Source: an uncultured Bacteroidota bacterium
GTDB lineage: Bacteria > Bacteroidota > Bacteroidia > Bacteroidales > FEN-979
Assembly (NCBI GenBank): GCA_937900965.1
Contig: CALCGJ010000007.1
Coordinates: 1 to 53,925 of the forward strand
Direction: 5' to 3'
DNA: 53,925 nt
Each line of letters starts with the position of its first letter. Position 1 is the first letter of the stretch. Below, piece by piece: positions 26,383 through 53,925 of this stretch. The translations under genes and the position numbers were made by a program. The notes beneath the pieces were generated by a model that saw only the letters and a list, made by a program, of their open reading frames with translations, was not told the DNA's origin and did no database searches.

Positions 26383-27567
26383 ATGGTATCCAATTCTCAC
26401 GGTAAACTCTGGAGTACCAGTTTCTTCTTTATGGCGATCGGGAATCTTCTGATGGCCACCGGGTTTTACTTCCTGATACCAACCCTTCCGATCTACGTGA
26501 TCGATGTGCTACATGCAAAAACCAGTGATGTCGGCTATATTCTTGCAGCTTACACCGTATCAGCTTTGCTCATCCGACCCTTTATTGGGATTGCTCTGGA
26601 CACCTGGGGCAGAAAATGGATCTACCTCATCTCCCTGCTGATTTTTACCCTGACCATCCTCCTGTATCCGTTAATTCTGACTTTCGGTGTACTGTTACTC
26701 CTCCGGTTCTTCCACGGATTCTCCTGGGGTGCTACCACAACAGCTGGGATGACTGTGGTGGTGGATATTATTCCTCCACAAAAACGTGGCCGGGGAATTG
26801 GTTACTTTGGTATTTCCTTTACTCTCGCGATGGCTATCGCTCCTGTTCTAGCCCTGCTGATCCTTGAAACCTGGGGATATTTTGAAATGTTCTATATCGC
26901 AGCCCTTTTTTCTTTCTGTGGGTTGGTGATGGTCCTCTTTGTCAGGTATCCGGTATTTCAAACCCAGCAGGTGAAGAGCAGGATCACCTGGAAACGGTTC
27001 ATTGAGCCAAAAGGGATTCCCATATCCATCCCGATGGCCCTGTTTGGCACTACATTTGGAGGGGTGGTATCCTTTATTACTCTATATGACAAAGAGCTGG
27101 GATTGGAGCAAGCAGGCAACTTCTTTCTGATACTGGCAGGCGGAGTTACAGTCTCACGGCTCTTTGCCGGACAGGTCTTCGACAGATATGGCCCTACATA
27201 CCTGATGATCGGTGGCTTCGTGGCGAATATCGCAGGACTTCTGTTCCTTGGTCTCATGCTGAACATCACTGGATTTCTGGTTGCCGCCGGCCTGATAGGA
27301 CTGGGTGTCGGAATCCTGATGCCCACTCTTCAAACGATGGTCAACAATGTTGTAACAGTTCACCGCCGTGGAGCGGCCAATGCTACATTGATCACTGCTT
27401 TTGATCTTGGCATAGGACTTGGTTCCCTGGGGCTTGGATACCTTGCTGAATGGATCGGTTTTGATGGCATGTACCTGGTCTGCATGGGTATTGCAGTTCT
27501 CTCCGTGATATACTATTTCTGGCATGTGCGAGGATTTTATGCGAAGAATGTGAGGCATGATATATAA
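26383..27567 (+). CDS. MFS transporter
   Basis: This is a 394-residue integral membrane protein with about 12 hydrophobic helices. It carries the major facilitator signature between TM2 and TM3 (GIALDTWGRKWIY), plus the R/G-rich motif DIIPPQKRGRGIGYFG after TM4. The second half repeats the pattern (AGQVFDRYGPTYLMIGG; VHRRGAANATLITAFDLGIGLGS). It resembles drug or sugar efflux MFS proteins of Bacteroidota, but the substrate cannot be assigned. It is the last gene of a run starting with the T9SS genes and is followed by a palindromic repeat. Confidence 0.9.
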   Translation: MVSNSHGKLWSTSFFFMAIGNLLMATGFYFLIPTLPIYVIDVLHAKTSDVGYILAAYTVSALLIRPFIGIALDTWGRKWIYLISLLIFTLTILLYPLILTFGVLLLLRFFHGFSWGATTTAGMTVVVDIIPPQKRGRGIGYFGISFTLAMAIAPVLALLILETWGYFEMFYIAALFSFCGLVMVLFVRYPVFQTQQVKSRITWKRFIEPKGIPISIPMALFGTTFGGVVSFITLYDKELGLEQAGNFFLILAGGVTVSRLFAGQVFDRYGPTYLMIGGFVANIAGLLFLGLMLNITGFLVAAGLIGLGVGILMPTLQTMVNNVVTVHRRGAANATLITAFDLGIGLGSLGLGYLAEWIGFDGMYLVCMGIAVLSVIYYFWHVRGFYAKNVRHDI

Positions 27568-41145: not shown

Positions 41146-42483
41146 ATGAACATCGAAAAAATCATGCACAACCTGGAAAAGAAAAACCCGGGAGAAGTTG
41201 AATACTTACAAGCCGTAAGAGAGGTTCTGGAATCAATTGAGGATATCTACAACGAGAATCCTCAGTTTGAATCTGGCAACATCATTGATCGGATAATTGA
41301 CCCCGACAGGATCTTTACATTCAAGATCAGCTGGGTTGACGATAACGGGAAAGTGCATGTGAATCGTGGCTACCGTGTCCAGTTCAATAATGCTATCGGA
41401 CCGTATAAAGGGGGATTACGCTTTCACCCAAGTGTGAACCTGAGTATTCTCAAATTTCTTGGATTCGAACAGATCTTTAAAAACAGTTTGACCACCCTGC
41501 CTATGGGTGGAGCCAAAGGAGGTTCGGATTTTGATCCCAAGGGGAAATCCAACGGTGAGATCATGCGTTTCTGCCAGGGATTCATGATGGAATTGTGGAA
41601 GATCATCGGCCCCGAAACAGATGTACCTGCAGGAGATATTGGTGTTGGTGGCCGGGAGATAGGATTCCTTTACGGGATGTATAAAAAACTGGCGCGTGAG
41701 AATTCAGGTGTGCTAACCGGCAAAGGACTAAACTGGGGCGGTAGCCTGATCCGGCCCGAAGCCACAGGTTTCGGAACTGTCTATTTTGCTGATGAGATGC
41801 TCAAAACAAAAGGGGAATCCTTTGCAGGAAAGATTGTTGCCCTGTCAGGCTTCGGGAATGTTGCATGGGGTGCGGCGATAAAGGCAACTGAACTGGGAGC
41901 CAAAGTGGTTACAATCTCCGGTCCCGATGGATTCGTATTTGATCCCGATGGCATATCCGGTGAGAAGATTGACTACCTCCTGGAACTGAGAGCCTCCAAC
42001 CAGGATATTGTGAAACCATATACCTATGAATTCCCATCCGCCCAGTTTCATCAGGGGAAACATCCATGGGAAGTAAAGTGCGATATCGCTCTTCCTTGTG
42101 CCACACAGAATGAGCTCAATAAAGAGGATGCACAGCACCTTGTCAATAATGGTGTACTTTGTGTTGCTGAAGGGGCCAATATGCCCAGTACCCCGGAAGC
42201 AGTTGAAGTATTCCTGGATCACAAGATCCTGTTTGCTCCCGGGAAAGCAGTGAACGCAGGTGGTGTAGCCACTTCAGGTCTTGAAATGTCGCAAAACTCG
42301 ATGAAATTGAGCTGGCCCATGTCTGAGGTTGACACCCGTCTTCATCAGATCATGTGTAGTATCCACGAACAATGTGTGAAGCATGGAACTGATGCCAATG
42401 GTTACGTTGATTACGTCAAAGGCGCCAATATAGCCGGATTCCTCAAGGTAGCCAACGCAATGCTCGATCAGGGAGTTGTCTGA
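41146..42483 (+). CDS. gdhA: Glutamate dehydrogenase
   Basis: This 445-residue hexameric glutamate dehydrogenase (ammonium assimilation from 2-oxoglutarate, probably NADPH-linked by similarity to the short-form bacterial enzymes) has the substrate-binding core YKGGLRFHPSVNLS, the catalytic lysine in TTLPMGGAKGGSDFDPKGKS, and the dinucleotide-binding segment VALSGFGNVAWGAAIKATELGAKVV. NALPCATQNE-type and NAGGVATSGLEMSQNS segments complete the family pattern. It overlaps the next gene by one base (TGATG), suggesting an operon with the BatA-like gene. Confidence 0.96.
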   Translation: MNIEKIMHNLEKKNPGEVEYLQAVREVLESIEDIYNENPQFESGNIIDRIIDPDRIFTFKISWVDDNGKVHVNRGYRVQFNNAIGPYKGGLRFHPSVNLSILKFLGFEQIFKNSLTTLPMGGAKGGSDFDPKGKSNGEIMRFCQGFMMELWKIIGPETDVPAGDIGVGGREIGFLYGMYKKLARENSGVLTGKGLNWGGSLIRPEATGFGTVYFADEMLKTKGESFAGKIVALSGFGNVAWGAAIKATELGAKVVTISGPDGFVFDPDGISGEKIDYLLELRASNQDIVKPYTYEFPSAQFHQGKHPWEVKCDIALPCATQNELNKEDAQHLVNNGVLCVAEGANMPSTPEAVEVFLDHKILFAPGKAVNAGGVATSGLEMSQNSMKLSWPMSEVDTRLHQIMCSIHEQCVKHGTDANGYVDYVKGANIAGFLKVANAMLDQGVV

Positions 42484-44555
42484 TGGCATTTGTTTCTCCG
42501 ATTTTTCTCTATGGACTCTTTGCACTGGCGATCCCGATCCTGATCCATCTGATTAATTTCAGGCGGTACAAGAAGATCTGGTTTACCAATGTTAAGTTTC
42601 TGGCAGAAATCAAGCAGGAGAGACAAAAACGTTCCCAACTCAAGCAGTGGTTACTTCTTGCGATCAGATTGCTGATCATTGCCTCATTGGTTATTGCATT
42701 TGCCCAGCCATACCTCCCCTCCACCCTTCAACCTGAAAAGCAAAAACAACAACAGGGGGTTAGTGTTTTCGTAGATAATTCGTTCAGCATGGATGCTGTT
42801 GGGAGTGAGGGTAAACTGATTGAAACGGCAAAAGCAAAAGCAAGAGAGATTGTGGAGGGGTACAAACCTTCTGACCGGTTCCAGCTTCTCACCAATGATT
42901 TTGAAGGAGCCCATCAAAACCTCGTTTCAAAAGATGAGTTCCTGAAACTTCTGGAGGAGGTCCGCATCTCACCAGCCTCCCGGAAGATTTCTGAGGTTGT
43001 ATCGAGGCAGCAGGATCTGCTTGCAGGATCTCCTGCTCTATCAGCTAATATCTTCCTAATCTCTGATTTTCAGGAGATAACAAGTGATTTTATAAACCTT
43101 GATGCCGATACATCCGTCTCCTTTTTCATCTTACCGCTGGAAGCAAATCGTACCGGAAACCTGTATATTGACACAGCTTACTTTGAGTCGGCTGTACAAC
43201 AGCCTGATCAGCTTTCGCGCTTACGCGTTCGCATCAGAAACACGGGTCCCGACCGGCTGGAGAAGATTCCTGTAAAACTTGTGATCAATGCCCGGCAAAA
43301 GGCTTTGGCCAGTGCAGAGATCGACCCGGAAACAGAGACGGAACTGGTCCTCCCTTTTGTCAACGAACCAGGTGGGATCCAGTCGGGATACATCGAGATT
43401 CCCGATTATCCGATTGTGTTTGATGACCGCTGTTACCTCAGTTACCCACTTGTAACCACCGTTTCGATTTTATGTATAAACCACGAAGGTGAGAATCCCT
43501 ATCTGAGTGCTCTCTTTGGAAACGATTCTGCATTCCAATTTTTAAATACAGGAATCAACAGTCTCAACTACTCTTCGTTTGGTGCCTACTCCCTGATCAT
43601 CCTGAACCAGGTGAATCGTATTTCATCCGGATTAGCCCAGGAACTTACCCGTTTCGCTCTTAATGGAGGAAGCCTCCTGGTCATCCTTCCTTTGGAGCCC
43701 AACCAGCCTGAGTACAAGAGATTTTTTCTCCCCCTCGGAATCCCGGGACTTCAAAATGCCGATACGAGTCAGCTCCGGGTTTCACTAATCAGTGTAGAAA
43801 GCCAGCTCTATGCTGATGTCTTTGAGCCTGATGCCTCAGGAAAAATTGTATTACCTGATAATGCTGACCTGCCTTCAGTCCATCTTCACTACCCGCTGAA
43901 CCTGAATACTGACTCCAGGATGGAGCCATTACTGCTGCTCCAGAACAGTGATGTGCTCTTGGCCAGAACTCCTGCTGGGAAAGGAGAAGTTTACCTGCTG
44001 ACCTCTCCGCTTGAGTTACTCTATTCAAGCCTCCCGGGACATCTCCTCTTTGTCCCGACATTTTATAAAATAGCCCTGCTTAGCCAGCCAAAACGCGATC
44101 TCTACTATCTGACAACATCAAACACTCCTGTGGAGATTCCAGCAGCAACTCATCAGAAGGACATCGTATTCCGGATCGTAAAGGATGATTCCCCTTTTGA
44201 GATTATTCCTGAATTGAGGTTCGTAGATGGAAGAATGCTCCTGTATCCTCACGACCAGATCCGGGAAGCCGGGCTCTACACAATCAATTCCGGAGAGAAA
44301 CCTTTATCCGGCTTGGCCTTCAACTATCCACGAACAGAATCAGACCGCACGTTTATGGACCCGGAAACTATCAGCGAAACGCTGGAACGGAAAAAGATTC
44401 ACTCCTTTGTCCTGCTAAAGCCCGACCATCCTTCTCTGACTAAGGAGATCCTGGAAGCAGAGCATGGGAAGCCTCTATGGAAACTTTTCATCCTGATATC
44501 CCTCCTCTTTCTCGCTTTGGAAATAGCCGTGATCAGGTTGTTCCCGAAACAATAG
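42483..44555 (+). CDS. BatA-domain / vWA membrane protein
   Basis: This 690-residue protein has the aerotolerance BatA N-terminal domain: a first TM (FLYGLFALAIPILIHLINFRRYKKIWFTNVKFL), then a basic KQERQKRSQLKQW linker and a second TM (LLLAIRLLIIASLVIAFAQPYLP). An extracytoplasmic vWA-like domain follows with a MIDAS-type DNSFS. Large beta-rich regions precede a last C-terminal TM (LFILISLLFLALEIAVI). It resembles the BatA/DUF4175-type proteins common in Bacteroidota, which partner with DUF58 and MoxR. Its function is unknown. Its stop codon touches the first enhancer-like site of the RiPP operon (44555). Confidence 0.9.
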   Translation: MAFVSPIFLYGLFALAIPILIHLINFRRYKKIWFTNVKFLAEIKQERQKRSQLKQWLLLAIRLLIIASLVIAFAQPYLPSTLQPEKQKQQQGVSVFVDNSFSMDAVGSEGKLIETAKAKAREIVEGYKPSDRFQLLTNDFEGAHQNLVSKDEFLKLLEEVRISPASRKISEVVSRQQDLLAGSPALSANIFLISDFQEITSDFINLDADTSVSFFILPLEANRTGNLYIDTAYFESAVQQPDQLSRLRVRIRNTGPDRLEKIPVKLVINARQKALASAEIDPETETELVLPFVNEPGGIQSGYIEIPDYPIVFDDRCYLSYPLVTTVSILCINHEGENPYLSALFGNDSAFQFLNTGINSLNYSSFGAYSLIILNQVNRISSGLAQELTRFALNGGSLLVILPLEPNQPEYKRFFLPLGIPGLQNADTSQLRVSLISVESQLYADVFEPDASGKIVLPDNADLPSVHLHYPLNLNTDSRMEPLLLLQNSDVLLARTPAGKGEVYLLTSPLELLYSSLPGHLLFVPTFYKIALLSQPKRDLYYLTTSNTPVEIPAATHQKDIVFRIVKDDSPFEIIPELRFVDGRMLLYPHDQIREAGLYTINSGEKPLSGLAFNYPRTESDRTFMDPETISETLERKKIHSFVLLKPDHPSLTKEILEAEHGKPLWKLFILISLLFLALEIAVIRLFPKQ

Positions 44556-44594
44556 TGTCAAAAATACGTACACTAGTGTCAAAATATTTGACAC
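44555..44594 (+). promoter_or_regulatory. Two tandem 19-bp enhancer-like sites (GTGTCAAAA...ACAC)
   Basis: Site 1 (44555-44573, GTGTCAAAAATACGTACAC) and site 2 (44576-44594, GTGTCAAAATATTTGACAC, a perfect 8-bp inverted repeat with a 3-nt centre) share their first nine bases. They start 21 bp apart, two helical turns. They lie about 75 bp upstream of the sigma-54-type promoter, where bacterial enhancer-binding proteins normally bind. Confidence 0.75.
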
Positions 44595-44656
44595 TTATAC
44601 GTTAAGTCATCGACATAATATTTTTGTATTTGTCTGATATACAATATTTTGTGTAT

Positions 44657-44673
44657 TTGGCACCATATTTGCA
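44657..44673 (+). promoter_or_regulatory. Sigma-54 (-24/-12) promoter of the RiPP operon
   Basis: TTGGCAC-N5-TTGCA gives GG at 44659-44660 and GC at 44671-44672 with exactly 10 nt between, the sigma-54 hallmark. The predicted transcription start is near 44684, giving a leader of about 43 nt to the first precursor ATG. Confidence 0.8.
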
Positions 44674-44726
44674 CTATGGATATTACAGGAACGTACATAA
44701 AAAATTAACATATAAAATTCCAAGCT

Positions 44727-44936
44727 ATGAAAACTTTAAGCATCATCAACCTTCACAAAGCTGAGATCAAGAAGAATCAACTGGCAAAAATCAAGGGTGG
44801 TACAGACGTAAAATGTTTCTGTACTCTTTCCAATCCATTTGTTACTACAAAAAAACAGGGTGGTACTACCAATCTGTGTAATTGTGAGAATACAACCAAT
44901 AATACTGCAGGTGTATACAACAGCTCTCCTTTATAA
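44727..44936 (+). CDS. RiPP precursor peptide 1 (GG-Bacteroidales family)
   Basis: This 69-residue precursor starts with a typical Bacteroidota GG leader (MKTLSIINLHKAEIKKNQLAKIKGG, cleavage expected after GG25). A ~44-residue Ser/Thr/Asn-rich core follows, with two conserved CxC motifs (CFC at about 30-32, CNC near 51-53) and an internal QGGT. The leader matches the TIGR04149-type 'natural product precursor' profile known for this family. The core is the likely substrate of the radical SAM enzyme encoded at 45238, and the leader of the C39 peptidase exporter encoded at 50399. It is the first gene after a sigma-54 promoter. Confidence 0.9.
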   Translation: MKTLSIINLHKAEIKKNQLAKIKGGTDVKCFCTLSNPFVTTKKQGGTTNLCNCENTTNNTAGVYNSSPL

Positions 44937-44958: not shown

Positions 44959-45168
44959 ATGAAAACTCTAAGTATCATCAACCTACACAAAGCTGAAATC
45001 ACGAAGAACCAACTCGCAAAAATCAAAGGTGGTATTGAAGTTCGTTGTTTCTGCACAGTTTCAAATCCGTTCCTCTCCACCAAACAGCAGGGAGGAACAG
45101 TAAAGCTATGTAACTGTGAAACTTCAACTACGACAGAGTCGGCAGTTTATAATTCAGCCTCGAAATAA
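44959..45168 (+). CDS. RiPP precursor peptide 2 (paralogue)
   Basis: This 69-residue paralogue of the preceding precursor has an almost identical leader (one substitution, K to T, at residue 15) and an aligned core. All four core cysteines and SNPF, QGGT and CNCE are conserved, while spacer residues and the C terminus vary. Conservation of the cysteines against divergence elsewhere suggests they are modified or cross-linked. It starts 22 bp after precursor 1, and a 69-bp spacer leads to the maturase gene. It is a recent tandem duplication under the same promoter. Confidence 0.9.
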   Translation: MKTLSIINLHKAEITKNQLAKIKGGIEVRCFCTVSNPFLSTKQQGGTVKLCNCETSTTTESAVYNSASK

Positions 45169-45237
45169 GTCCAGGGAAGTGTTACCTTTGCCTGTATCCA
45201 ACGATGGGTATTCGTTTAACTATAGGTCCAAAGGCTG

Positions 45238-46752
45238 ATGAAAAATGCGGTCTTCTTCACTTCCGGTAAAGGTAACCAGTATCTGTACAGCCCGTATAGA
45301 AATCAGCTGCGGCTGTGTCATCCTTTAATAATACATCTCTTTTCCCTGGAACAAAAAGGCACCAAGCTAAGCCGTTGGTTATCAGCTATTCGTAAGAGCG
45401 GCAGTGTCACTATTCAGGATGTTGGCACTTTTTCCTCATCAGAGGTAGCATACCAGCTGGATAAATACCGTTTCCTGAAACGAAATGGATTCCTGAAACC
45501 CTCCAGGAATATTAATATTGAAGGCAGACTTAAGGGGTCTGATGTGAAGAAAAATATTTCTACGGTCAGACAGGTCATATTTGAAGTGACGGAAGATTGC
45601 AATCTCAATTGTACCTATTGCACCTACAGTAAGTTCTATATCAACAAAGAGAGACATGACAGCTATTTGTCATTTGAGAATGTCAGGCATACGCTTACAG
45701 AATTAATCTCCAGGCGCACTCCATCGCCATCTAATAACCTCATTATCAGCTTCTATGGAGGCGAGCCGCTTAAGAATTTCAAGTTCATCAAATCTGTGGT
45801 GGAATTTACCAATAGCTATCCCAGGGATCAGATCTCATTTACCTATTCCCTTTCAAGCAATGGTCTCTTATTAAAAAAATACATCGGATTTCTTGTCGAG
45901 CATAACTTTGATCTCTCCGTTAGTCTTGATGGGGATGAAGTAGCCAACTCATTCCGGGTATTGAAAAACAATAAACCCTCATTTGACATCACAACAAAAA
46001 ACCTCGACTACGTCAGAACACACTATCCCGAATATTTTGAAAAAAGCATCAGTTTCCTGACGGTATTGCATAACCGGAACTCTTTCAAATCCGTCCATGA
46101 ATTCTTCCAGGAGCGGTACAGTAAGGTCCCTCAGATGGCAGATGTCAACCCGATCAATCTCAATCCGTTACACGAAAAGGAGTTTCACGAGAAGTTACAA
46201 TCAAAGCCCATATCCCCTCAAGAAGAGAAAGAGACTATTAAACAGATGGAAAACGTGCATCCAAAGGTGAGGGAGATGTCCAGGCTTACAGAGTACTATT
46301 CCGGGTTCGTGTTTAAAAATTACCTTGAGGTGATCTCTTCAAAACGTGGTAAAGTTTCATCAAAAAAGTTTATTCCTACAGCTACCTGTACCCCCTTCTC
46401 AATCCGGGCCTATTTTTCGGCCGACGGTACCATTTTGCCCTGCGAACATATAAGCCCGTTCCATGGAATCGGCACATACTCTGACAACCAACTGGTACTT
46501 GACCCCACTGGCATGGCTAAACTCTACAACACCTATTATGATAAAATCTCGCGTTTCTGCAGCAAATGCTATTTCATCGATAACTGCCAGGAATGTCTTT
46601 TCAATGCCGGAGTGGAGACAGACCATCCATCTTGCTCCTTTTATATCCGGGAAAGTGGATTCAGGAAATATCTTATGAATCATTACTCCAACATTGAGAA
46701 CGACTATCCGTTTTACCGCAAAACCACTCAAACTGCTTTTTATGAAGGATAA
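45238..46752 (+). CDS. Radical SAM/SPASM peptide maturase (GG-Bacteroidales type)
   Basis: This is a 504-residue radical SAM enzyme. An N-terminal ~110-residue region (a leader-binding RRE-like role is possible) precedes the [4Fe-4S] motif C121-x3-C125-x2-C128 (EDCNLNCTYCTY). The SAM-binding GGEP motif (SFYGGEPL) and other barrel strands follow. The C-terminal SPASM region has seven cysteines at about C384, C402, C441, C444, C450, C453 and C466, which would bind two auxiliary clusters. By synteny it resembles the TIGR04148-type maturase of the GG-Bacteroidales system. The bond made (thioether, C-C or other) cannot be read from sequence. Its stop overlaps the next gene by 11 nt. Confidence 0.93.
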   Translation: MKNAVFFTSGKGNQYLYSPYRNQLRLCHPLIIHLFSLEQKGTKLSRWLSAIRKSGSVTIQDVGTFSSSEVAYQLDKYRFLKRNGFLKPSRNINIEGRLKGSDVKKNISTVRQVIFEVTEDCNLNCTYCTYSKFYINKERHDSYLSFENVRHTLTELISRRTPSPSNNLIISFYGGEPLKNFKFIKSVVEFTNSYPRDQISFTYSLSSNGLLLKKYIGFLVEHNFDLSVSLDGDEVANSFRVLKNNKPSFDITTKNLDYVRTHYPEYFEKSISFLTVLHNRNSFKSVHEFFQERYSKVPQMADVNPINLNPLHEKEFHEKLQSKPISPQEEKETIKQMENVHPKVREMSRLTEYYSGFVFKNYLEVISSKRGKVSSKKFIPTATCTPFSIRAYFSADGTILPCEHISPFHGIGTYSDNQLVLDPTGMAKLYNTYYDKISRFCSKCYFIDNCQECLFNAGVETDHPSCSFYIRESGFRKYLMNHYSNIENDYPFYRKTTQTAFYEG

Positions 46753-48022
46753 CTCTGCCTGGCTTTTTTTGGAACCCTATGTGCATATGCTCTGCCAGGA
46801 TGGAGTTTTTCTTCTCTACAATACAATTAGTAAAACCGTTTTGGAGTTCAGTAATTCCCATGCACTCATTGAAATTACAGAAGGACTAATAGATCCCGGT
46901 AATGGTTATGTGGTCTCACTTTCCACCAGTCAGTTGCAGGATGCAACTGTCCGGGATTTCATCCGGCAGCTGAAAGAGCATTTCATGGGTGACCTTCTCG
47001 ACCCTTCCTGGTCGGATGGTAAGCCGGTCAATATTTACCCGGAACCTTTTGTTAAATTTGGCCTAAAACTGCCTCAGGAAAAGCATTCTGCCATGAAAGC
47101 CGATCTTGATGTACGAAATTACCTGCAGGAGATCACGTTGTTCCTGAATACGGGAACAGAAGCATCCGCAGAACCGTACACCACAGCATACCTCCAATGC
47201 TACTATCCGGCTGTCGTTTCAGCCAAAACAGAGGAGATGGATATTCACCTGTTCCGCACTGTGATCGACGATGTTAACAATTATACACCTACGTTGATCC
47301 ATATATCTGGCATCAACCTTCTTGCCTATCCCTACCTTGAGGATGTTCTGGGAGTCCTGGAATCCAGCCCTTTTCAAAAAAAATATCACCTCCTGATTGA
47401 GCATTGGGAAGAACGGGTCTTCCCATACATCCTGATTCAGAAACAAACAACCCTATCCCTTTATATCAACTTCCCCGTCAATCATGATACTATCGCCGCG
47501 TATTTAAGGAGCCTGCCGGATCCGAAACTCATAAAGAAACTGGAATTCAACTTTGTGGTTAGCAACCAGGAGGAGTTAGACAAGGCACTGGAGATTATCA
47601 AACTGTTAGATCTTAACAATGTTTTCTTCAAACCTTTCTTTACCGGAAAGAATCTCGATTTTTTTCGTAAAAATGTGTTTGTTTCCAAAGAAGAGATACT
47701 GGCATCACAACCCGACCAGCAGCAGGTGTTTTCCAGGATATCGATTAACGAGAATGATTTCGGGAAATTTTCTGTTCTCCCCGGAGGAGAAGTTTATGCA
47801 AATCTGAACGATCCCATGATCGGAGAAGCAACGAAGAGCTCGCTGGTTCAGCTTGTTCGCACTGAACTGGATAAGGGAATCAGCTGGCGCAGGATTCGGG
47901 CGCAGGTCTCTCCATGCAAAGATTGTTTGTATCAGTTTCTTTGTCCACCGATCAGCTCCTACGAGATCTTCATGAAACGGTTCAATTTCTGCGATGTCTA
48001 TCCAAACGGGGAAGAGGTATGA
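46742..48022 (+). CDS. Pseudo-radical-SAM protein (GG-Bacteroidales system)
   Basis: This 426-residue partner of the maturase has no N-terminal CxxxCxxC motif and so no radical SAM cluster. It keeps a C-terminal cysteine cluster CKDCLYQFLC (C-x2-C-x5-C), as in a SPASM tail. This matches the 'pseudo-rSAM protein' (TIGR04150-type) that always accompanies this RiPP family. The start at 46742 overlaps the maturase stop (ATGAAGGATAA). It probably helps recognise the precursor or carries an auxiliary Fe-S cluster. The overlap with both neighbours implies translational coupling and a protein complex. Confidence 0.88.
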   Translation: MKDNSAWLFLEPYVHMLCQDGVFLLYNTISKTVLEFSNSHALIEITEGLIDPGNGYVVSLSTSQLQDATVRDFIRQLKEHFMGDLLDPSWSDGKPVNIYPEPFVKFGLKLPQEKHSAMKADLDVRNYLQEITLFLNTGTEASAEPYTTAYLQCYYPAVVSAKTEEMDIHLFRTVIDDVNNYTPTLIHISGINLLAYPYLEDVLGVLESSPFQKKYHLLIEHWEERVFPYILIQKQTTLSLYINFPVNHDTIAAYLRSLPDPKLIKKLEFNFVVSNQEELDKALEIIKLLDLNNVFFKPFFTGKNLDFFRKNVFVSKEEILASQPDQQQVFSRISINENDFGKFSVLPGGEVYANLNDPMIGEATKSSLVQLVRTELDKGISWRRIRAQVSPCKDCLYQFLCPPISSYEIFMKRFNFCDVYPNGEEV

Positions 48023-50406
48023 ACTGGAACTCAATGGTGACATCCTATCGATTTATCCTGAAGAGTAAACTTTTCACCGCTATTAATTTGATTGGTCTAA
48101 CGGCTGGTCTGACGGTCTCATTCTTTCTGTTGATATTCATTATCAACGAATTAAGCTATAACTCCTTCCACGACAAGAGCGACCGTCTCTTCCGTATCAT
48201 TACGGTTACAGAAGAGACTGCCTACCCCTTCTCCCCCTCTCTTCTCCCGGTAAGATTGAAAGAAAAAAGCAACGTGATTTTACAGTCTGGTGGAATTATC
48301 TCCCTTCCGTTCTCGATAGGGCCTGTGGCTGTAACGTATGGTCAACATAACCAGGATGAACCAGGATTTTTCTGTGCGGATCCGGAGATACTCGAAATGC
48401 TTAGCTTCAGGATTGTCCGGGGTGAGGGAAAAACAGGGTTAGAGAAGGGAGAATCTGTCATGCTTTCACAACCGGCAGCGCAAAAATATTTTGGAGAGGA
48501 TATCCCAATTGGGAAGAAGATTGAGATTAAAATAGAAGGGATTCCCGTTTCGTTGACTGTTACCGGTGTCTTTGAGAAACTACCATGGAACTCTACCATG
48601 AAAATTGATTTCCTGGCAGGGATGGATCTCTTCAACAACCTTATGGAGCAATTCGGTACCGATCTGCCAGCCGAAGCAAGAAGTTATACCGATAATTATG
48701 CTGAGAGTTATATCCTGGTTAACAATCGTGTGAGGATTTCAGAGATCAGGGAAGATCTTCCATCACTCCTGGATACCCTGGGACTGGCAGAGGAGAATGT
48801 TTCTTTTGTTTTTCAGAATATTCGTGACATTCATCTGGATTCCGATGAGATTACAAACGATTTTCATCAAAAAGGGAACCGGTCATCTCTCTTCTATTAT
48901 GGATCTCTGGCCTTCGCCATTTTATTGCTCGCAGGCATCAACTACTCCATCCTGAGTACTGCCAGATCGGCTTTACGCTTTAAAGAGATCGGAGTACGAA
49001 AGGTCCTCGGAGCTACCAAACGGGAATTACGGACTCAGATCCTGTTTGAATCCATGTTACTGACTTTTCTGGCTCTGCCGCTCTCTTTTCTGGTCCTGGG
49101 ATTCGTTGAGCCGTTTGTCCATAAGCTATATGGGTATGATATCCAGCTATACACATGGAACATGCTGATTTACATTCCTCTCTTCGCAGCCATCACCCTG
49201 CTGATCGGTTTGATCTCCGGAGGATACCTTGCTTTTTACCTTTCGGCCCTGAAACCGTTAAAAGCCATAAAAAACCAGGTATTAACCCGGCAACGGTTCA
49301 GCCTGAGTAAGCTTTTTATAGTGTTCCAGCTTTTTATCACACTCTTTCTCCTGGGTTGTGTTCTGATCATCTTCTCTCAACTCGATTATTGTCTGAATAC
49401 AAACAGTGGCATCCAAAAGAAGAACCTATTGATTGTTTCATTCAATCCTGAAGAGTTTTCATCATATCCGGAATTCCGGGACCGGATGCGAAAAAACACA
49501 GAGGTAGTGGCCGTTTCCGGAAGCTCCATCATCCCGCCCACCAACGCAATTTCGTTCATTTCGTATTCCGTTTTAACTTCCGATTCAGTACTCAAGACAT
49601 CTAACATGGAGAATTACTTCGTAGACAGTGACTTCTTCACTACACTGGGTATCAGTATGATATCAGGATGGGATATCAATCAAACAGAAATCGGTCAAAC
49701 CAAAGCACCCTCTGTCATCAACCAGGAAGCTGAAGCGTTGATGGACCTCAGGCAACCGGTTGGAAGCTCTATTGGAGGAACTATCATAACAGGCATCGTC
49801 AGGGACTTTAACATCCACTCGTTTCATTCGAAGATTACTCCGGCAATATTCATATACAATCCCTCAGAGTGCAGTTTTATGGTTGTCAGATGCCAGCCGG
49901 GGTCCATGAAGGCGGTCCGTCAGGAATTGGAGAGGCAATGGAAAGAGCTGGCGCCGGATCTCCCCTTCGCATGTACCACATTCGATGATGAACTGAATAC
50001 GATGTACTCCGGCGAGCAGAAATTTGGCCAGGTGGTGGCCTCCTTTTCGTTCCTTGCTTTTCTCATTACCGGGATGGGGCTGTTTGGTCTTGCCCTGCTG
50101 ATGATCGAACGCCGGTTGAAAGAGATTGCAGTCAGGAAGATCTTCGGCGCCTCAAACAGTGATATTCTCTACCGAATGCAGAAGGAGTTTCTGATTTACA
50201 CCATTTTTGCTTCTTTTGTGGCTGTTCCGGCAACCTGGTATGTCATGAATTTCTGGTTATCATCATTCTATTATAAAGTTCCGCTCCACTGGTATCTCTT
50301 TGTAATCGCTGTGCTTTCCATCGCTATTTTTGTATCCTCGATCATCATGATCAGGACCTGGGTTGTTTTACGTAAAAACCTCATGAACGTTTTGAGATAT
50401 GAGTAA
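48019..50406 (+). CDS. FtsX/MacB-like ABC transporter permease
   Basis: This 795-residue permease has an N-terminal MacB-type periplasmic core after the first TM (FTAINLIGLTAGLTVSFFLLIFIINELSYNSFHDKSDRLFRI). FtsX domains with several TM segments lie at about 280-420 (GNRSSLFYYGSLAFAILLLAGINYSILSTARSALRFKEIGVRKVLGATKRELRTQ) and again at the C-terminal end (LKEIAVRKIFGASNSDILYRMQKEFLIY). The partner ATPase is probably the MacB/LolD-like protein encoded at 53160. It overlaps the pseudo-rSAM stop by 4 nt and the C39 exporter by 8 nt. In RiPP clusters such pairs act in export or self-immunity. Confidence 0.93.
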   Translation: MNWNSMVTSYRFILKSKLFTAINLIGLTAGLTVSFFLLIFIINELSYNSFHDKSDRLFRIITVTEETAYPFSPSLLPVRLKEKSNVILQSGGIISLPFSIGPVAVTYGQHNQDEPGFFCADPEILEMLSFRIVRGEGKTGLEKGESVMLSQPAAQKYFGEDIPIGKKIEIKIEGIPVSLTVTGVFEKLPWNSTMKIDFLAGMDLFNNLMEQFGTDLPAEARSYTDNYAESYILVNNRVRISEIREDLPSLLDTLGLAEENVSFVFQNIRDIHLDSDEITNDFHQKGNRSSLFYYGSLAFAILLLAGINYSILSTARSALRFKEIGVRKVLGATKRELRTQILFESMLLTFLALPLSFLVLGFVEPFVHKLYGYDIQLYTWNMLIYIPLFAAITLLIGLISGGYLAFYLSALKPLKAIKNQVLTRQRFSLSKLFIVFQLFITLFLLGCVLIIFSQLDYCLNTNSGIQKKNLLIVSFNPEEFSSYPEFRDRMRKNTEVVAVSGSSIIPPTNAISFISYSVLTSDSVLKTSNMENYFVDSDFFTTLGISMISGWDINQTEIGQTKAPSVINQEAEALMDLRQPVGSSIGGTIITGIVRDFNIHSFHSKITPAIFIYNPSECSFMVVRCQPGSMKAVRQELERQWKELAPDLPFACTTFDDELNTMYSGEQKFGQVVASFSFLAFLITGMGLFGLALLMIERRLKEIAVRKIFGASNSDILYRMQKEFLIYTIFASFVAVPATWYVMNFWLSSFYYKVPLHWYLFVIAVLSIAIFVSSIIMIRTWVVLRKNLMNVLRYE

Positions 50407-52603
50407 ATTCCCATTCTCACGGCAACTTGATACAATGGATTGCGGTCCGGCCTGCCTCCAGATGGTTTCCCGTTTCCACGGGAAGAGCTACTCACTTTCC
50501 ACTCTTCGGGATTCATGCCACATCACCCGTGACGGGGTAACCATGCTGGGAATCAGCGATGCAGCCGAAGAGACCGGATTCCATACCATGGGCGTGAAGA
50601 TCAGTTTAGCCGAACTTCTCTCTCAAGCGCCCCTCCCCTGCATCCTTCACTGGCAGCAGAATCATTTCGTAGTGTTGTACAGAGTGAAGGAGAAAAATGG
50701 AAGGAAGTATTTCTACATCGCTGATCCCGCAATTGGAAAAGGAAGGTATAACGAAGAGGAGTTCATGAAACGATGGCTCTTTGAGGTGGATCCGGAAGAT
50801 GAACAGAAGGGAATCTGTCTCCTGCTGGAGCCTACGGAAGCATTTCATGCCAGGGGGGATGAAAAGACCGGAATGTCGCATCTCCGGTTCATCTTCAGTT
50901 ACCTGAAACCTCACCGGAAGCTCTTCTCACAACTGGTCCTCGGCATGCTGCTCGGAAGTCTGTTCATGCTGATCTTTCCCTTTCTCACCCAGTCGATAAT
51001 CGATGTCGGGATCCAGAACCAGGATCTGAGCTTTATTTTCCTGGTTCTGCTTGCCATGATGGCACTATTTCTCGGCCAGATCTCAGTGGAGTTTATCCGC
51101 GGGTGGATCCTCCTGCATATCAGCACACGGGTCAATATTTCGTTGATCTCCGACTTCCTGATCAAAATCATGAAACTGCCCATTGGCTTCTTTGATACCA
51201 AGCGCACAGGTGACCTCATGCAGCGTATCCTCGACCACGACCGGATTCAGTCCTTTATCACCGTCAGCTCACTGAGTATTCTCTTTTCTATTGTGAATTT
51301 CATCATCTTCGGATTGGTTCTCCTGGCATACAACTCCACCATCTTTCTTGTTTTTATAACTGGTAGTGTGCTCTATGCCCTCTGGGTTTATCTCTTCATG
51401 AAACGCAGAAAAGAGCTAGATTATGCCAGGTTCTCATACATGGCTGAAAACCAGGGGAACCTCTTCCAGTTGGTGACTGCCATGCAGGAAATCAAACTTA
51501 ACAATTGCGAAAAGGAAAAACGATGGGATTGGGAACGGATCCAGGCCAAACTTTTCCGGGTGAGCTTAAAAAGCCTCTCTCTTTCACAGTACCAGAATGT
51601 TGGCGCACTGTTCTTCATCCGTACAAAAGATATCGTGATCATTTTTTTATCGGCTTCACTGGTGCTGAAAGGGGAACTGACTCTTGGAATGATGCTTGCT
51701 ATCCAGTACATCCTTGGACAGGTGAACAACCCGGTTGAGCAAATGGTCAACTTTATCAGGGAGGCGCAGGATGCTACTATCAGCATGGCTCGCCTGGATG
51801 AGGTAGGCTCGCTGAAAGAGGAAGAGAGGCCGGATGAAAATCTGAAGATAAAGATTCCACATGAGCATAGCATGCATCTCAACGAACTCTCCTTTCAGTA
51901 TGAAGGACCGCATTCTCCGTTCGTGCTTCAGGATCTGAAGCTGACCATCCCCGGGAAGAGGATCACCGCTATCGTTGGTCCCAGTGGTAGCGGTAAGACA
52001 ACCCTGATCAAACTGATGCTGGGTTTCTATCCCCCCGTAGCAGGGTCAATCAATATCGGGGATCTGCCCATGCAAAACATCTCTCCGAGATACTGGCGTA
52101 GTATCTGCGGCGCGGTCATGCAGGAGGGCTACATCTTTTCCGACACTATAGCCAGTAATATCTCTATGAGTCGTGAGAATATGGAGCCGGAAAAACTCAC
52201 CCGGGCGATCAGGATCGCCAACCTGACCGAATTTGTGGAGTCGCTGCCTACAGGTCTTCAGACAAAGATCGGACAGGAGGGGCACGGCATCAGTGAAGGA
52301 CAAAAACAAAGAATTTTGATCGCCCGGGCAGTTTACAAAGATCCGGAATTCATTTTCTTCGATGAAGCCACGAACTCATTGGATGCCAATAATGAACGGA
52401 TGATCATCGAAAACCTCAAGGAATTTTTTGCCGGTAAAACTGTAGTTATAGTGGCTCACCGGCTTAGTACCGTAAAAAATGCCGACCAGATTGTAGTCCT
52501 CGATCACGGATGCATTGTGGAGCAGGGTACGCACCATGAACTAACCTCCCTGAGGGGGGCCTATTATGAATTGGTTAAAAATCAACTTGAACTGGGGTAC
52601 TAG
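50399..52603 (+). CDS. Peptidase-containing ABC exporter (C39 double-glycine peptidase)
   Basis: This 734-residue PCAT-type exporter cleaves GG leaders and exports the core. The N-terminal C39 peptidase has catalytic C15 (QLDTMDCGPAC), H89 (HWQQNHFVVLY) and D109 (YIADPAIG). A six-helix ABC membrane domain follows (about 170-450). The ATPase has Walker A GPSGSGKTT (from about 527), a signature ISEGQKQR in place of the usual LSGGQ, Walker B FIFFDEATNSLD and an H-loop (IVAHRLS). The GG leaders of the precursors encoded at 44727 and 44959 are the obvious substrates. It overlaps the permease gene by 8 nt. Confidence 0.95.
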   Translation: MSKFPFSRQLDTMDCGPACLQMVSRFHGKSYSLSTLRDSCHITRDGVTMLGISDAAEETGFHTMGVKISLAELLSQAPLPCILHWQQNHFVVLYRVKEKNGRKYFYIADPAIGKGRYNEEEFMKRWLFEVDPEDEQKGICLLLEPTEAFHARGDEKTGMSHLRFIFSYLKPHRKLFSQLVLGMLLGSLFMLIFPFLTQSIIDVGIQNQDLSFIFLVLLAMMALFLGQISVEFIRGWILLHISTRVNISLISDFLIKIMKLPIGFFDTKRTGDLMQRILDHDRIQSFITVSSLSILFSIVNFIIFGLVLLAYNSTIFLVFITGSVLYALWVYLFMKRRKELDYARFSYMAENQGNLFQLVTAMQEIKLNNCEKEKRWDWERIQAKLFRVSLKSLSLSQYQNVGALFFIRTKDIVIIFLSASLVLKGELTLGMMLAIQYILGQVNNPVEQMVNFIREAQDATISMARLDEVGSLKEEERPDENLKIKIPHEHSMHLNELSFQYEGPHSPFVLQDLKLTIPGKRITAIVGPSGSGKTTLIKLMLGFYPPVAGSINIGDLPMQNISPRYWRSICGAVMQEGYIFSDTIASNISMSRENMEPEKLTRAIRIANLTEFVESLPTGLQTKIGQEGHGISEGQKQRILIARAVYKDPEFIFFDEATNSLDANNERMIIENLKEFFAGKTVVIVAHRLSTVKNADQIVVLDHGCIVEQGTHHELTSLRGAYYELVKNQLELGY

Positions 52604-52604
52604 G

Positions 52605-53147
52605 ATGAAACAGCAACCAACCGATCATACAAAATACAGTAAGGAAGTGGAGGAAATACTGCGTAAAAAACCCGCTTTTCTGGTCCGTAAAGGCATTCTT
52701 CTGCTCACAATCCTTGTTGCACTGCTATTGGTTGTATCTCATTTTATTAAATATCCGGAGAAACTGACAGCTTCTGTCACGTTCGAAGCAACCACCAAAA
52801 ATGTTTCAGCTCCCATCAATCATTCAGCCGCCCTCATCAATGATTCAGCCCTCATGTATGGGCAGATCATCCTGACTTCGGCAGCAGCTTCTATCGTTGA
52901 ACCGGGACAACCGGTTTTGATGTTCCTTCAGGCGACACCTGAGAGTTTGCCCATTGAAGTACAAGGAACTGTTGATAGCCTGCTCCCGATGGGCAATGGG
53001 GATTACTATACCGTACTGGTTATCCCTGCTGAACCAATACAACTTTTTGGGTATCAGGGGAAAGCCTACATTTCGATAGGCGAGGCCAGTTTACTGTCCA
53101 AAATATTAAACCCGGTTTTTGCAGTGTTCCGATCTGCTGGCCAATAG
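52605..53147 (+). CDS. Short HlyD-like membrane fusion protein lacking the hairpin
   Basis: This 180-residue protein has a cytosolic N terminus, one TM helix (GILLLTILVALLLVVSHFIKYPEK) and a periplasmic region. Its end, FGYQGKAYISIGEASLLSKILNP, matches the C terminus of HlyD-type adaptors (QGKAxIxxxxxSLLxKI). Normal adaptors of this kind are about 400 residues, with a lipoyl domain and a long coiled-coil hairpin between the TM and the beta barrel; both are missing here with an intact frame. It starts 2 bp after the exporter stop. It may be a minimal adaptor that cannot contact a TolC-like channel itself. Confidence 0.8.
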   Translation: MKQQPTDHTKYSKEVEEILRKKPAFLVRKGILLLTILVALLLVVSHFIKYPEKLTASVTFEATTKNVSAPINHSAALINDSALMYGQIILTSAAASIVEPGQPVLMFLQATPESLPIEVQGTVDSLLPMGNGDYYTVLVIPAEPIQLFGYQGKAYISIGEASLLSKILNPVFAVFRSAGQ

Positions 53148-53159
53148 AGGAAGACCGTT

Positions 53160-53831
53160 ATGATAATAATCAAAGAATTGACAAAAGTGTTTCAGGCTAA
53201 CGATGTACAGACCATGGCCCTGAATCAGGTAGATTTCGAGGTAAGCGAAGGGGAGTTTGTAGCTATTATGGGCCCTTCAGGCTGTGGGAAATCCACCCTG
53301 CTCAACACAATTGGCCTGCTGGAAGAACCAACCAGCGGTCAGTATAAATTCCTGGGACACAACATCTTTGAATTATCAGAAAAAGAACGTACTGCAATCC
53401 GGAAGAAGAATATCGGTTTTGTATTTCAGAATTTTAACCTGATCGACGAACTGAATATATTCGAGAATGTAGAACTGCCTCTGATCTACCTTGGATTGCC
53501 AGCCCCCGAACGGAAAGTGAAAGTTATCGATGTCCTGGAAAAGATGGAGATGACTCACCGTAAGAAATACTTCCCAAATCAACTATCCGGTGGCCAGCAG
53601 CAACGCATTGCAGTGGCCAGGGCACTGGTAGTGAATCCAGCCCTCCTGCTGGCAGATGAGCCCACCGGTAACCTCGACTCCCTCCATGGAGATGATGTGA
53701 TGAACCTGTTCATCAACCTCAATGATGCTGGCACAACCATTGTGATGGTAACCCATTCGGCCCGCGATGCAGAGTACAGCACACGTATCGTAAACCTGTT
53801 CGACGGACAGATTGTTTCGGAGAGGTACTAG
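53160..53831 (+). CDS. MacB/LolD-type ABC transporter ATP-binding protein
   Basis: This 223-residue ATPase has Walker A GPSGCGKST, a Q-loop in IGFVFQNFNLID, signature LSGGQQQRIAVARAL, Walker B LLLADEPTGNLD and an H-loop VTHSARDA. Its length and sequence type are those of the ATPase partner of FtsX-like permeases, most likely the permease encoded at 48019. It is the last gene of the RiPP operon, 12 bp after the adaptor. With the permease it may export product or provide self-immunity. Confidence 0.95.
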   Translation: MIIIKELTKVFQANDVQTMALNQVDFEVSEGEFVAIMGPSGCGKSTLLNTIGLLEEPTSGQYKFLGHNIFELSEKERTAIRKKNIGFVFQNFNLIDELNIFENVELPLIYLGLPAPERKVKVIDVLEKMEMTHRKKYFPNQLSGGQQQRIAVARALVVNPALLLADEPTGNLDSLHGDDVMNLFINLNDAGTTIVMVTHSARDAEYSTRIVNLFDGQIVSERY

Positions 53832-53922: not shown

Positions 53923-53925
53923 GCA

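Follow-up and report, generated by a model that had tools for sequence, protein, structure and literature searches.

Two-component enhancer-binding proteins such as NtrC, ZraR and AtoC act on sigma-54 promoters, and related arrangements have been described for natural-product genes. In Myxococcus xanthus, polyketide and non-ribosomal peptide genes have sigma-54 promoters together with the enhancer-binding protein Nla28 (PMC7910581), and a sigma-54 domain was reported in 2% of the response regulators of biosynthetic clusters (PMC10663231); therefore, sigma-54 regulators in biosynthetic clusters are not new in general. Ribosomally synthesized and post-translationally modified peptides (RiPPs) of the TIGR04148 type are known from Bacteroides cassettes, for which the available part of the source shows no control circuit (PMC4573289), and their families are also named elsewhere (PMC8939145). 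A survey of Bacteroidales RiPP clusters mentions a two-component system in one cluster, and the word "sigma" is absent from the main text of that survey as available (PMC10352776). Among the matches listed in the open-access literature, outside which most subscription papers lie, none concerned sigma-54 control of this RiPP class. The present analysis deals with a RiPP operon of this class near the end of a stretch of 53,925 nucleotides (the window) from an uncultured Bacteroidota bacterium of the Bacteroidales lineage FEN-979 (GenBank assembly GCA_937900965.1, contig CALCGJ010000007.1). Comparison with related genomes indicates that positions 44555-44684, just before the operon, are very probably a sigma-54 promoter with its enhancer, controlled by a dedicated two-component pair encoded beside the operon.

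An exact GG-N10-GC element, with GG at 44659-44660 and GC at 44671-44672 within TTGGCACCATATTTGCA at 44657-44673, lies on the forward strand just before the first precursor gene, as was stated in the original prediction, which had been made from the letters of the window. The predicted -24/-12 element reads TTGGCACC-ATAT-TTGCA, and its GG-N10-GC stands in a TTGGCAC-N5-TTGCA context. The TTGGCACNNNNNTTGCA pattern has one exact match in the whole genome (3,787,108 bases), which is this element. With up to two mismatches, 354 matches were counted on both strands of the genome versus 199 for the reversed control pattern, and within the window, where the single exact match is again 44657-44673, five were counted versus 4.38 expected, which is chance level. 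The -24/-12 match is by itself weak evidence and suggestive at most; position and conservation decide. Since match counts alone are weak for such a pattern, conservation was tested in relatives. A second sigma-54-like place (27044-27060, one mismatch) was disregarded; it falls within a transporter-like gene (26383-27567) of the same strand. Transcription is predicted to start near 44684, which would give a leader of 43 nt up to the ATG at 44727. The presence of rpoN, which had been proposed as a check, was confirmed by a PF04552 match in a 509-aa open frame (E 5.4e-52).

Two 19-bp sites with a pitch of 21 bp, the second a perfect inverted repeat, had also been described upstream of the promoter, and both are present. 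Putative activator site 1 (44555-44573, forward strand), GTGTCAAAAATACGTACAC, is an imperfect palindrome with 13 of 16 scored positions, and its first base is the final stop-codon base of the BatA-like gene that precedes the operon (42483-44555, PF07584). Putative activator site 2 (44576-44594, forward strand), GTGTCAAA-ATA-TTTGACAC, has the sequence GTGTCAAAATATTTGACAC, in which perfect 8-bp arms surround 3 bp, and its centre lies 73.5 bp before the promoter GG. By coordinate arithmetic, the centres of the two sites lie 99 and 120 bp upstream of the predicted start. A genome scan for the palindrome, as the prediction had suggested, gave a single exact match across the 3.79 Mb, namely site 2 before the RiPP operon; with up to three mismatches, 30 places per strand were counted versus 18 in the control.

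Both elements recur in related loci. The maturase of the operon is present in 16 of the 43 genomes of the same family, and the upstream counts refer to 15 family loci, L099 (G024) being left out because its contig begins inside the maturase gene. In 14 of the 15 loci an exact GG-N10-GC is present, placed at -62 to -71 relative to the first precursor ATG. The palindromes above it take the form GTGT[AC]AAA-N3-TTT[GT]ACAC; at least one scoring at least 14/16 is present in 14 of the 15 loci, and 12 loci carry two or more sites scoring at least 13/16. In total, 38 palindromic sites scoring at least 12/16 were counted over the 15 upstream regions, a number that includes three probable chance sites (the third of L098, the third of L096 and the fourth of L086), versus a mean of 2.9 and a maximum of 6 in 30 shuffles that keep base composition only. 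The six loci of the window's genus have two palindromes and the five of a second genus have three, in both cases with a 21-bp pitch. Between the lowest strong palindrome and the GG, with the chance sites excluded, lie 73.5 bp in five of the six loci of the window's genus and 72.5 bp in the remaining one; each of the five loci of the second genus has 62.5 bp. These spacings differ by about one helical turn, which would fit a dependence on the helical face.

The conservation of these motifs might reflect no more than a young or repetitive region, and the same-genus sequences are indeed close, with maturase identity of 65-83%. Among five of them (L093 left out), however, the mean pairwise column identity is 1.0 for site 2, 0.88 for site 1, 0.83 for the promoter and 0.66 for the leader, and it falls to 0.52 for the spacer; divergence of the spacer while the sites did not diverge already contradicts this explanation. 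Both elements also persist across genera at 39-48% maturase identity, and the exact palindrome occurs at one or two places per genus genome, which does not suit a repetitive region. A young or repetitive region is thus an extremely improbable account of the conservation.

An ordinary Bacteroidota housekeeping promoter of the TAnnTTTG type might instead drive the operon, the GG-N10-GC being there by chance. The upstream region in the window does hold a TAnnTTTG copy (44619-44626), and TATTTGC, the -12 half of the predicted element, looks like a -7 element with its TTTG. Over the 15 homologous upstream regions, however, TAnnTTTG occurs in four, at four different positions, versus the near-constant placement of GG-N10-GC described above, and a housekeeping promoter is therefore considered very unlikely. 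The accompanying statement in the original prediction that the other promoters of the window belong to the TAnnTTTG type could not be established, as TANNTTTG occurs 31 times versus 31.25 expected, counted irrespective of placement.

A co-occurring enhancer-binding protein, which the original prediction had proposed to look for, adjoins the operon in relatives. In all 11 relatives' contigs that were read past the operon, the ATPase gene is followed by a convergent pair encoding a histidine kinase and an NtrC-type response regulator, and the same pair follows the 3' part of the operon in each of three further contigs (G004, G015 and G024), giving 14 of 14. After trimming of alternative starts, the kinase has about 450 aa and the regulator about 457 aa. 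The regulator of L100 comprises receiver, sigma-54 interaction and Fis-type helix-turn-helix (HTH) domains, and one regulator from a relative (P0001) matched PF00072, PF00158 (214.7 bits) and PF02954, all over the cut-off. An ortholog of this activator (at least 64% identity) is present in 17 of the 43 family genomes; the next matches are at 53%, and those examined are paralogs. Activator and maturase occur together in 15 of the 16 maturase genomes, the sixteenth being the window's own, and the activator is contiguous with operon genes in 13 of the 15 genomes that have both, contig ends hiding the arrangement in G002 and G041. In G015, which has the activator but no maturase, the exporter gene is cut off by the end of the contig. 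For neither the activator nor the kinase does any of the 25 best NCBIfam matches reach its cut-off. The conserved elements, rpoN and the linked activator in relatives together support the predicted sigma-54 promoter with enhancer-like sites.

The kinase of the pair appears to be a membrane protein of a particular design. In 10 of the 11 relatives the hydropathy peaks near residues 10-30 and again near 34-52 (L108 has the second peak only), so that the two hydrophobic segments are separated by a few residues, and in the one kinase scanned with Pfam (P0002) HATPase_c-type domains alone were found. Bce-like intramembrane-sensing histidine kinases have two transmembrane helices, a very short outside loop and no sensor domain, and the kinase matches this structural definition. 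Kinases of this type work with ABC (ATP-binding cassette) permeases.

The palindromes also stand before the activator gene, which points to a regulon of two promoters. Before 10 of the 11 activator genes, 19 palindromes scoring at least 14/16 were counted, versus a composition-shuffle mean of 0.07. In six genus genomes (69-96% complete), GTGTCAAANNNTTTGACA has nine exact places, six before the RiPP operon and three before the activator gene, and no exact copy was found outside these two promoters; allowing one mismatch adds two more activator promoters. Four same-genus relatives have a TAAATTTG element directly below the strong palindrome, and a weaker site (12/16) overlaps this element; in L108 and L109 a strong palindrome runs into TACATTTG. 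A two-promoter regulon is thus probable. It might be argued that the promoter is of the sigma-54 type and that a different regulator, such as a repressor common to the operon and the activator gene, binds its palindromes, while the adjoining pair acts elsewhere, and a third factor would indeed give the same pattern before both the operon and the activator gene. Against this, the positions of the site centres fit enhancers, the activator gene is inherited together with the palindromes, and paralogous pairs have TGT...ACA-type repeats, read by eye, before their own exporter operons. Another regulator at these sites is therefore judged unlikely.

Control by the adjoining pair would proceed as follows. 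The membrane histidine kinase would phosphorylate the NtrC-type enhancer-binding protein, whose oligomers would bind the tandem palindromes, loop over the AT-rich spacer and contact the polymerase. At the expense of ATP, the activator would then open the promoter bound by sigma-54 RNA polymerase, and the whole operon, encoding the precursors, the maturase, a pseudo-rSAM (radical S-adenosylmethionine) protein, a C39 exporter and a MacB-type ABC unit, would be switched on, being otherwise silent. Binding of the activator to the same palindromes before its own gene, partly across a likely housekeeping promoter, would probably limit its own amount.

Several observations weigh against this explanation. 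The Fisher value for co-occurrence of activator and maturase (1.3e-8 for 15/1/2/25 among the 43 family genomes) is overstated, as related sequences are not independent. The arrangement of the upstream elements is not uniform: L095 carries GG-N10-GT, the four loci outside the two genera have a palindrome pitch of 28-30 bp and not 21, the palindromes of L096 are weak (12/16 at best), and the second site is weak (12/16) in L088 and L093. At one mismatch, GTGTCAAANNNTTTGACA has seven further places in the six genus genomes. G010 has the activator with no maturase in the genome and no adjoining kinase. In addition, the loop of the activator reads GAFTDA in 10 of 11 relatives and GTFTDA in one, replacing GAFTGA. 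GAFTDA is listed among the variants expected to keep activity in Desulfovibrio (PMC4641369), whereas in a pull-down with a Dickeya regulator that carries it sigma-54 was not recovered (PMC10714721). The least secure part of the explanation is autorepression. L110 has a TAnnTTTG without overlap and no site of at least 14/16, and L104-L107 have no TAnnTTTG near the start of the activator gene; overall, TAnnTTTG is found near the activator start in seven of the 11 relatives and is overlapped by a site in six, four of these sites being weak (12/16). For those six, that the regulator blocks its own housekeeping promoter may be taken as a fair inference.

The activator ortholog of G010 (L228, G010:C61, 1240-2613) lies beside a BatA-like gene on a 4.7-kb contig, giving the impression of a cluster lost except for its activator.

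The kinase-activator pair was also not found in the window's own 3.79 Mb assembly, where the best match to the kinase has E 7.9e-21 and 32% identity over residues 213-447; this too counts against the proposed circuit. That the window holds no enhancer-binding protein, as had been noted at the outset, is correct, and the contig (C7) stops just before the position that the activator takes in relatives. It ends at 53925, 94 bp after the ATPase gene, and contig C20 opens, at base 96, with the gene (73% identity) that relatives carry beyond the pair. For these reasons the kinase and activator genes probably fall into the assembly gap after base 53925, and the pair would thus be present in the window's own genome. 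No end of a kinase gene is readable in the last 94 bases of contig C7. The genome's own enhancer-binding proteins were considered as the activator and rejected: their best identity is 38% (C130) versus 64-95% for the orthologs elsewhere, and among the PF00158 matches, five strong and two weak, the five strong ones have other genes in their surroundings. The end of the contig (53832-53925) is G+C-rich, with short inverted CCCCTAAA/GGGG-type motifs. By eye it looks like a dispersed repeat, which may have interrupted the assembly immediately ahead of the kinase gene.

Paralogous kinase-activator pairs with 50-53% identity are divergent from MacB-ATPase-led operons with FtsX-type permeases in seven of the seven loci examined (L229-L233, L238 and L239). 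The following features of these loci were read by eye. Two genes between the exporter components resemble an outer-membrane factor and a membrane fusion protein. GGCA...TTG elements lie upstream of the operons in all seven, with an exact GG-N10-GC in two (L232 and L238) and GA or GT at -12 in five. Repeats of the TGTwCA...TTwACA type are seen upstream of the exporter operons of these pairs. Because the paralogs adjoin MacB-type operons with sigma-54-like elements, the pair at the RiPP operon probably belongs to an exporter-linked sigma-54 family, of which the operon would have its own version. This agrees with the published finding that sigma-54 promoters are enriched before COG0577 permeases in Bacteroidia (PMC12316311).

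In wider draws of genomes the maturase was found in one of 395 genomes of a phylum draw, which is the window's own, and in 23 of 393 genomes of an order draw, two of them from the window's family. A strict sigma-54 element, by a pattern that recovers 11 of the 15 family sites, was found in none of 24 order-level loci (L136-L159, 21 genomes) within up to 2.5 kb upstream, the available length being 21 bases in L147 and 0.8-1.5 kb in L145, L150, L151 and L156. A looser pattern, recovering 13 of the 15, matched in four of the 24 loci (L136, L151, L152 twice and L158), and all five matches lie inside open reading frames (ORFs) and were rejected. The activator was likewise found in none of the 24 loci, several of which are cut downstream. 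Within these 24 loci, the wider TIGR04148 family shows no sign of the sigma-54 circuit.

As to the signal, the shortness of the two-helix sensor, together with the exporter genes, suggests that the pair responds to exporter activity or membrane stress. By analogy with the Bce-type modules, it is tentatively conceivable, and on balance doubtful, that the kinase, which has hardly any outside portion, reads the state of the co-encoded MacB/FtsX-type ABC unit, such that export of the modified peptide, or attack by it, feeds back via the enhancer-binding protein to the sigma-54 promoter. If true, this would be a sigma-54-based equivalent, in a Gram-negative bacterium, of the Bce-type modules that sense flux, serving one RiPP and confined to two promoters in the genome.

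All genes of the operon lie on the forward strand. The two GG-leader precursor peptides (44727-44936 and 44959-45168) each have two CxC motifs in the core, as have, by eye, all 17 precursors of the 15 family loci; they score 19.7 and 19.9 bits (E about 5e-4), below the TIGR04149 cut-off of 25, and are termed TIGR04149-like. The radical SAM peptide maturase (45238-46752; TIGR04148, 357.6 bits, cut-off 300) is followed by the pseudo-rSAM protein (46694-48022; TIGR04150, 340.3 bits, cut-off 250), the true start of which may be further in, since the same-genus L093 and L097 read 426 aa. The MacB/ADOP-type FtsX permease (47914-50406) has FtsX and MacB_PCD matches and scores 191.1 bits versus ADOP and 74.5 bits versus DarB, both under their cut-offs. 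The listed ATG of its ORF (47914) falls inside the pseudo-rSAM gene; the true start is probably near 48019, the permeases of relatives having 793-795 aa. Next come a peptidase-containing ABC exporter with C39 peptidase, membrane and ATPase domains (50399-52603) and a small HlyD-like subunit (52566-53147), which is named by position and length, had no family match in the profile searches, and is in place in four of five same-genus relatives, the fifth being cut before it. A MacB/DarD-like ABC ATPase (53160-53831; 265.2 bits versus the DarD model NF038007, cut-off 375) is the last gene before the contig end. Between precursor 2 and the maturase, GTTACCTTT and AAAGGTAAC (45150-45310) could pair across the maturase start; the predicted hairpin folds little better than shuffled sequences, with a z-score of -1.44 and 20 of 200 shuffles equally good.

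Analysis of sequence alone thus yields a candidate promoter, enhancer, activator, sensor and probable two-promoter regulon for this Bacteroidota RiPP class. If the circuit operates as proposed, a silent peptide cluster becomes addressable, by expression of the activator to switch it on and through the sensor to probe its signal, and sigma-54 control of MacB-type exporters in Bacteroidia would now be linked to peptide natural products. The promoter, regulator and RiPP classes are each known, and their combination, as predicted here, was not met in the open-access literature searched.

Compared with the NtrC, ZraR and AtoC systems, the locus shares the -24/-12 element, tandem palindromes some 100-120 bp upstream of the predicted start, and an activator with receiver, AAA+ and Fis-type HTH parts that has a partner histidine kinase. 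Unlike those systems, it lies beside and before a peptide natural-product operon, its activator has the GAFTDA loop, and its kinase is anchored by two helices a few residues apart. The natural-product genes of Myxococcus xanthus are likewise under sigma-54 and an enhancer-binding protein, but in another phylum and for other product classes (PMC7910581). The COG0577 case in Bacteroidia likewise involves predicted sigma-54 promoters, and the present operon includes a MacB/FtsX-type permease, whereas that case is a statistical enrichment in which, in the part available, no RiPP cluster, activator or enhancer site is named (PMC12316311). With the TIGR04148/TIGR04149/TIGR04150 cassettes of Bacteroides the operon shares the maturase, the pseudo-rSAM protein, the GG-leader precursor and the C39-type exporter; unlike those cassettes, it has an additional MacB-type ABC unit, CxC...CxC cores, and a predicted sigma-54 element with, in relatives, a linked two-component pair (PMC4573289).

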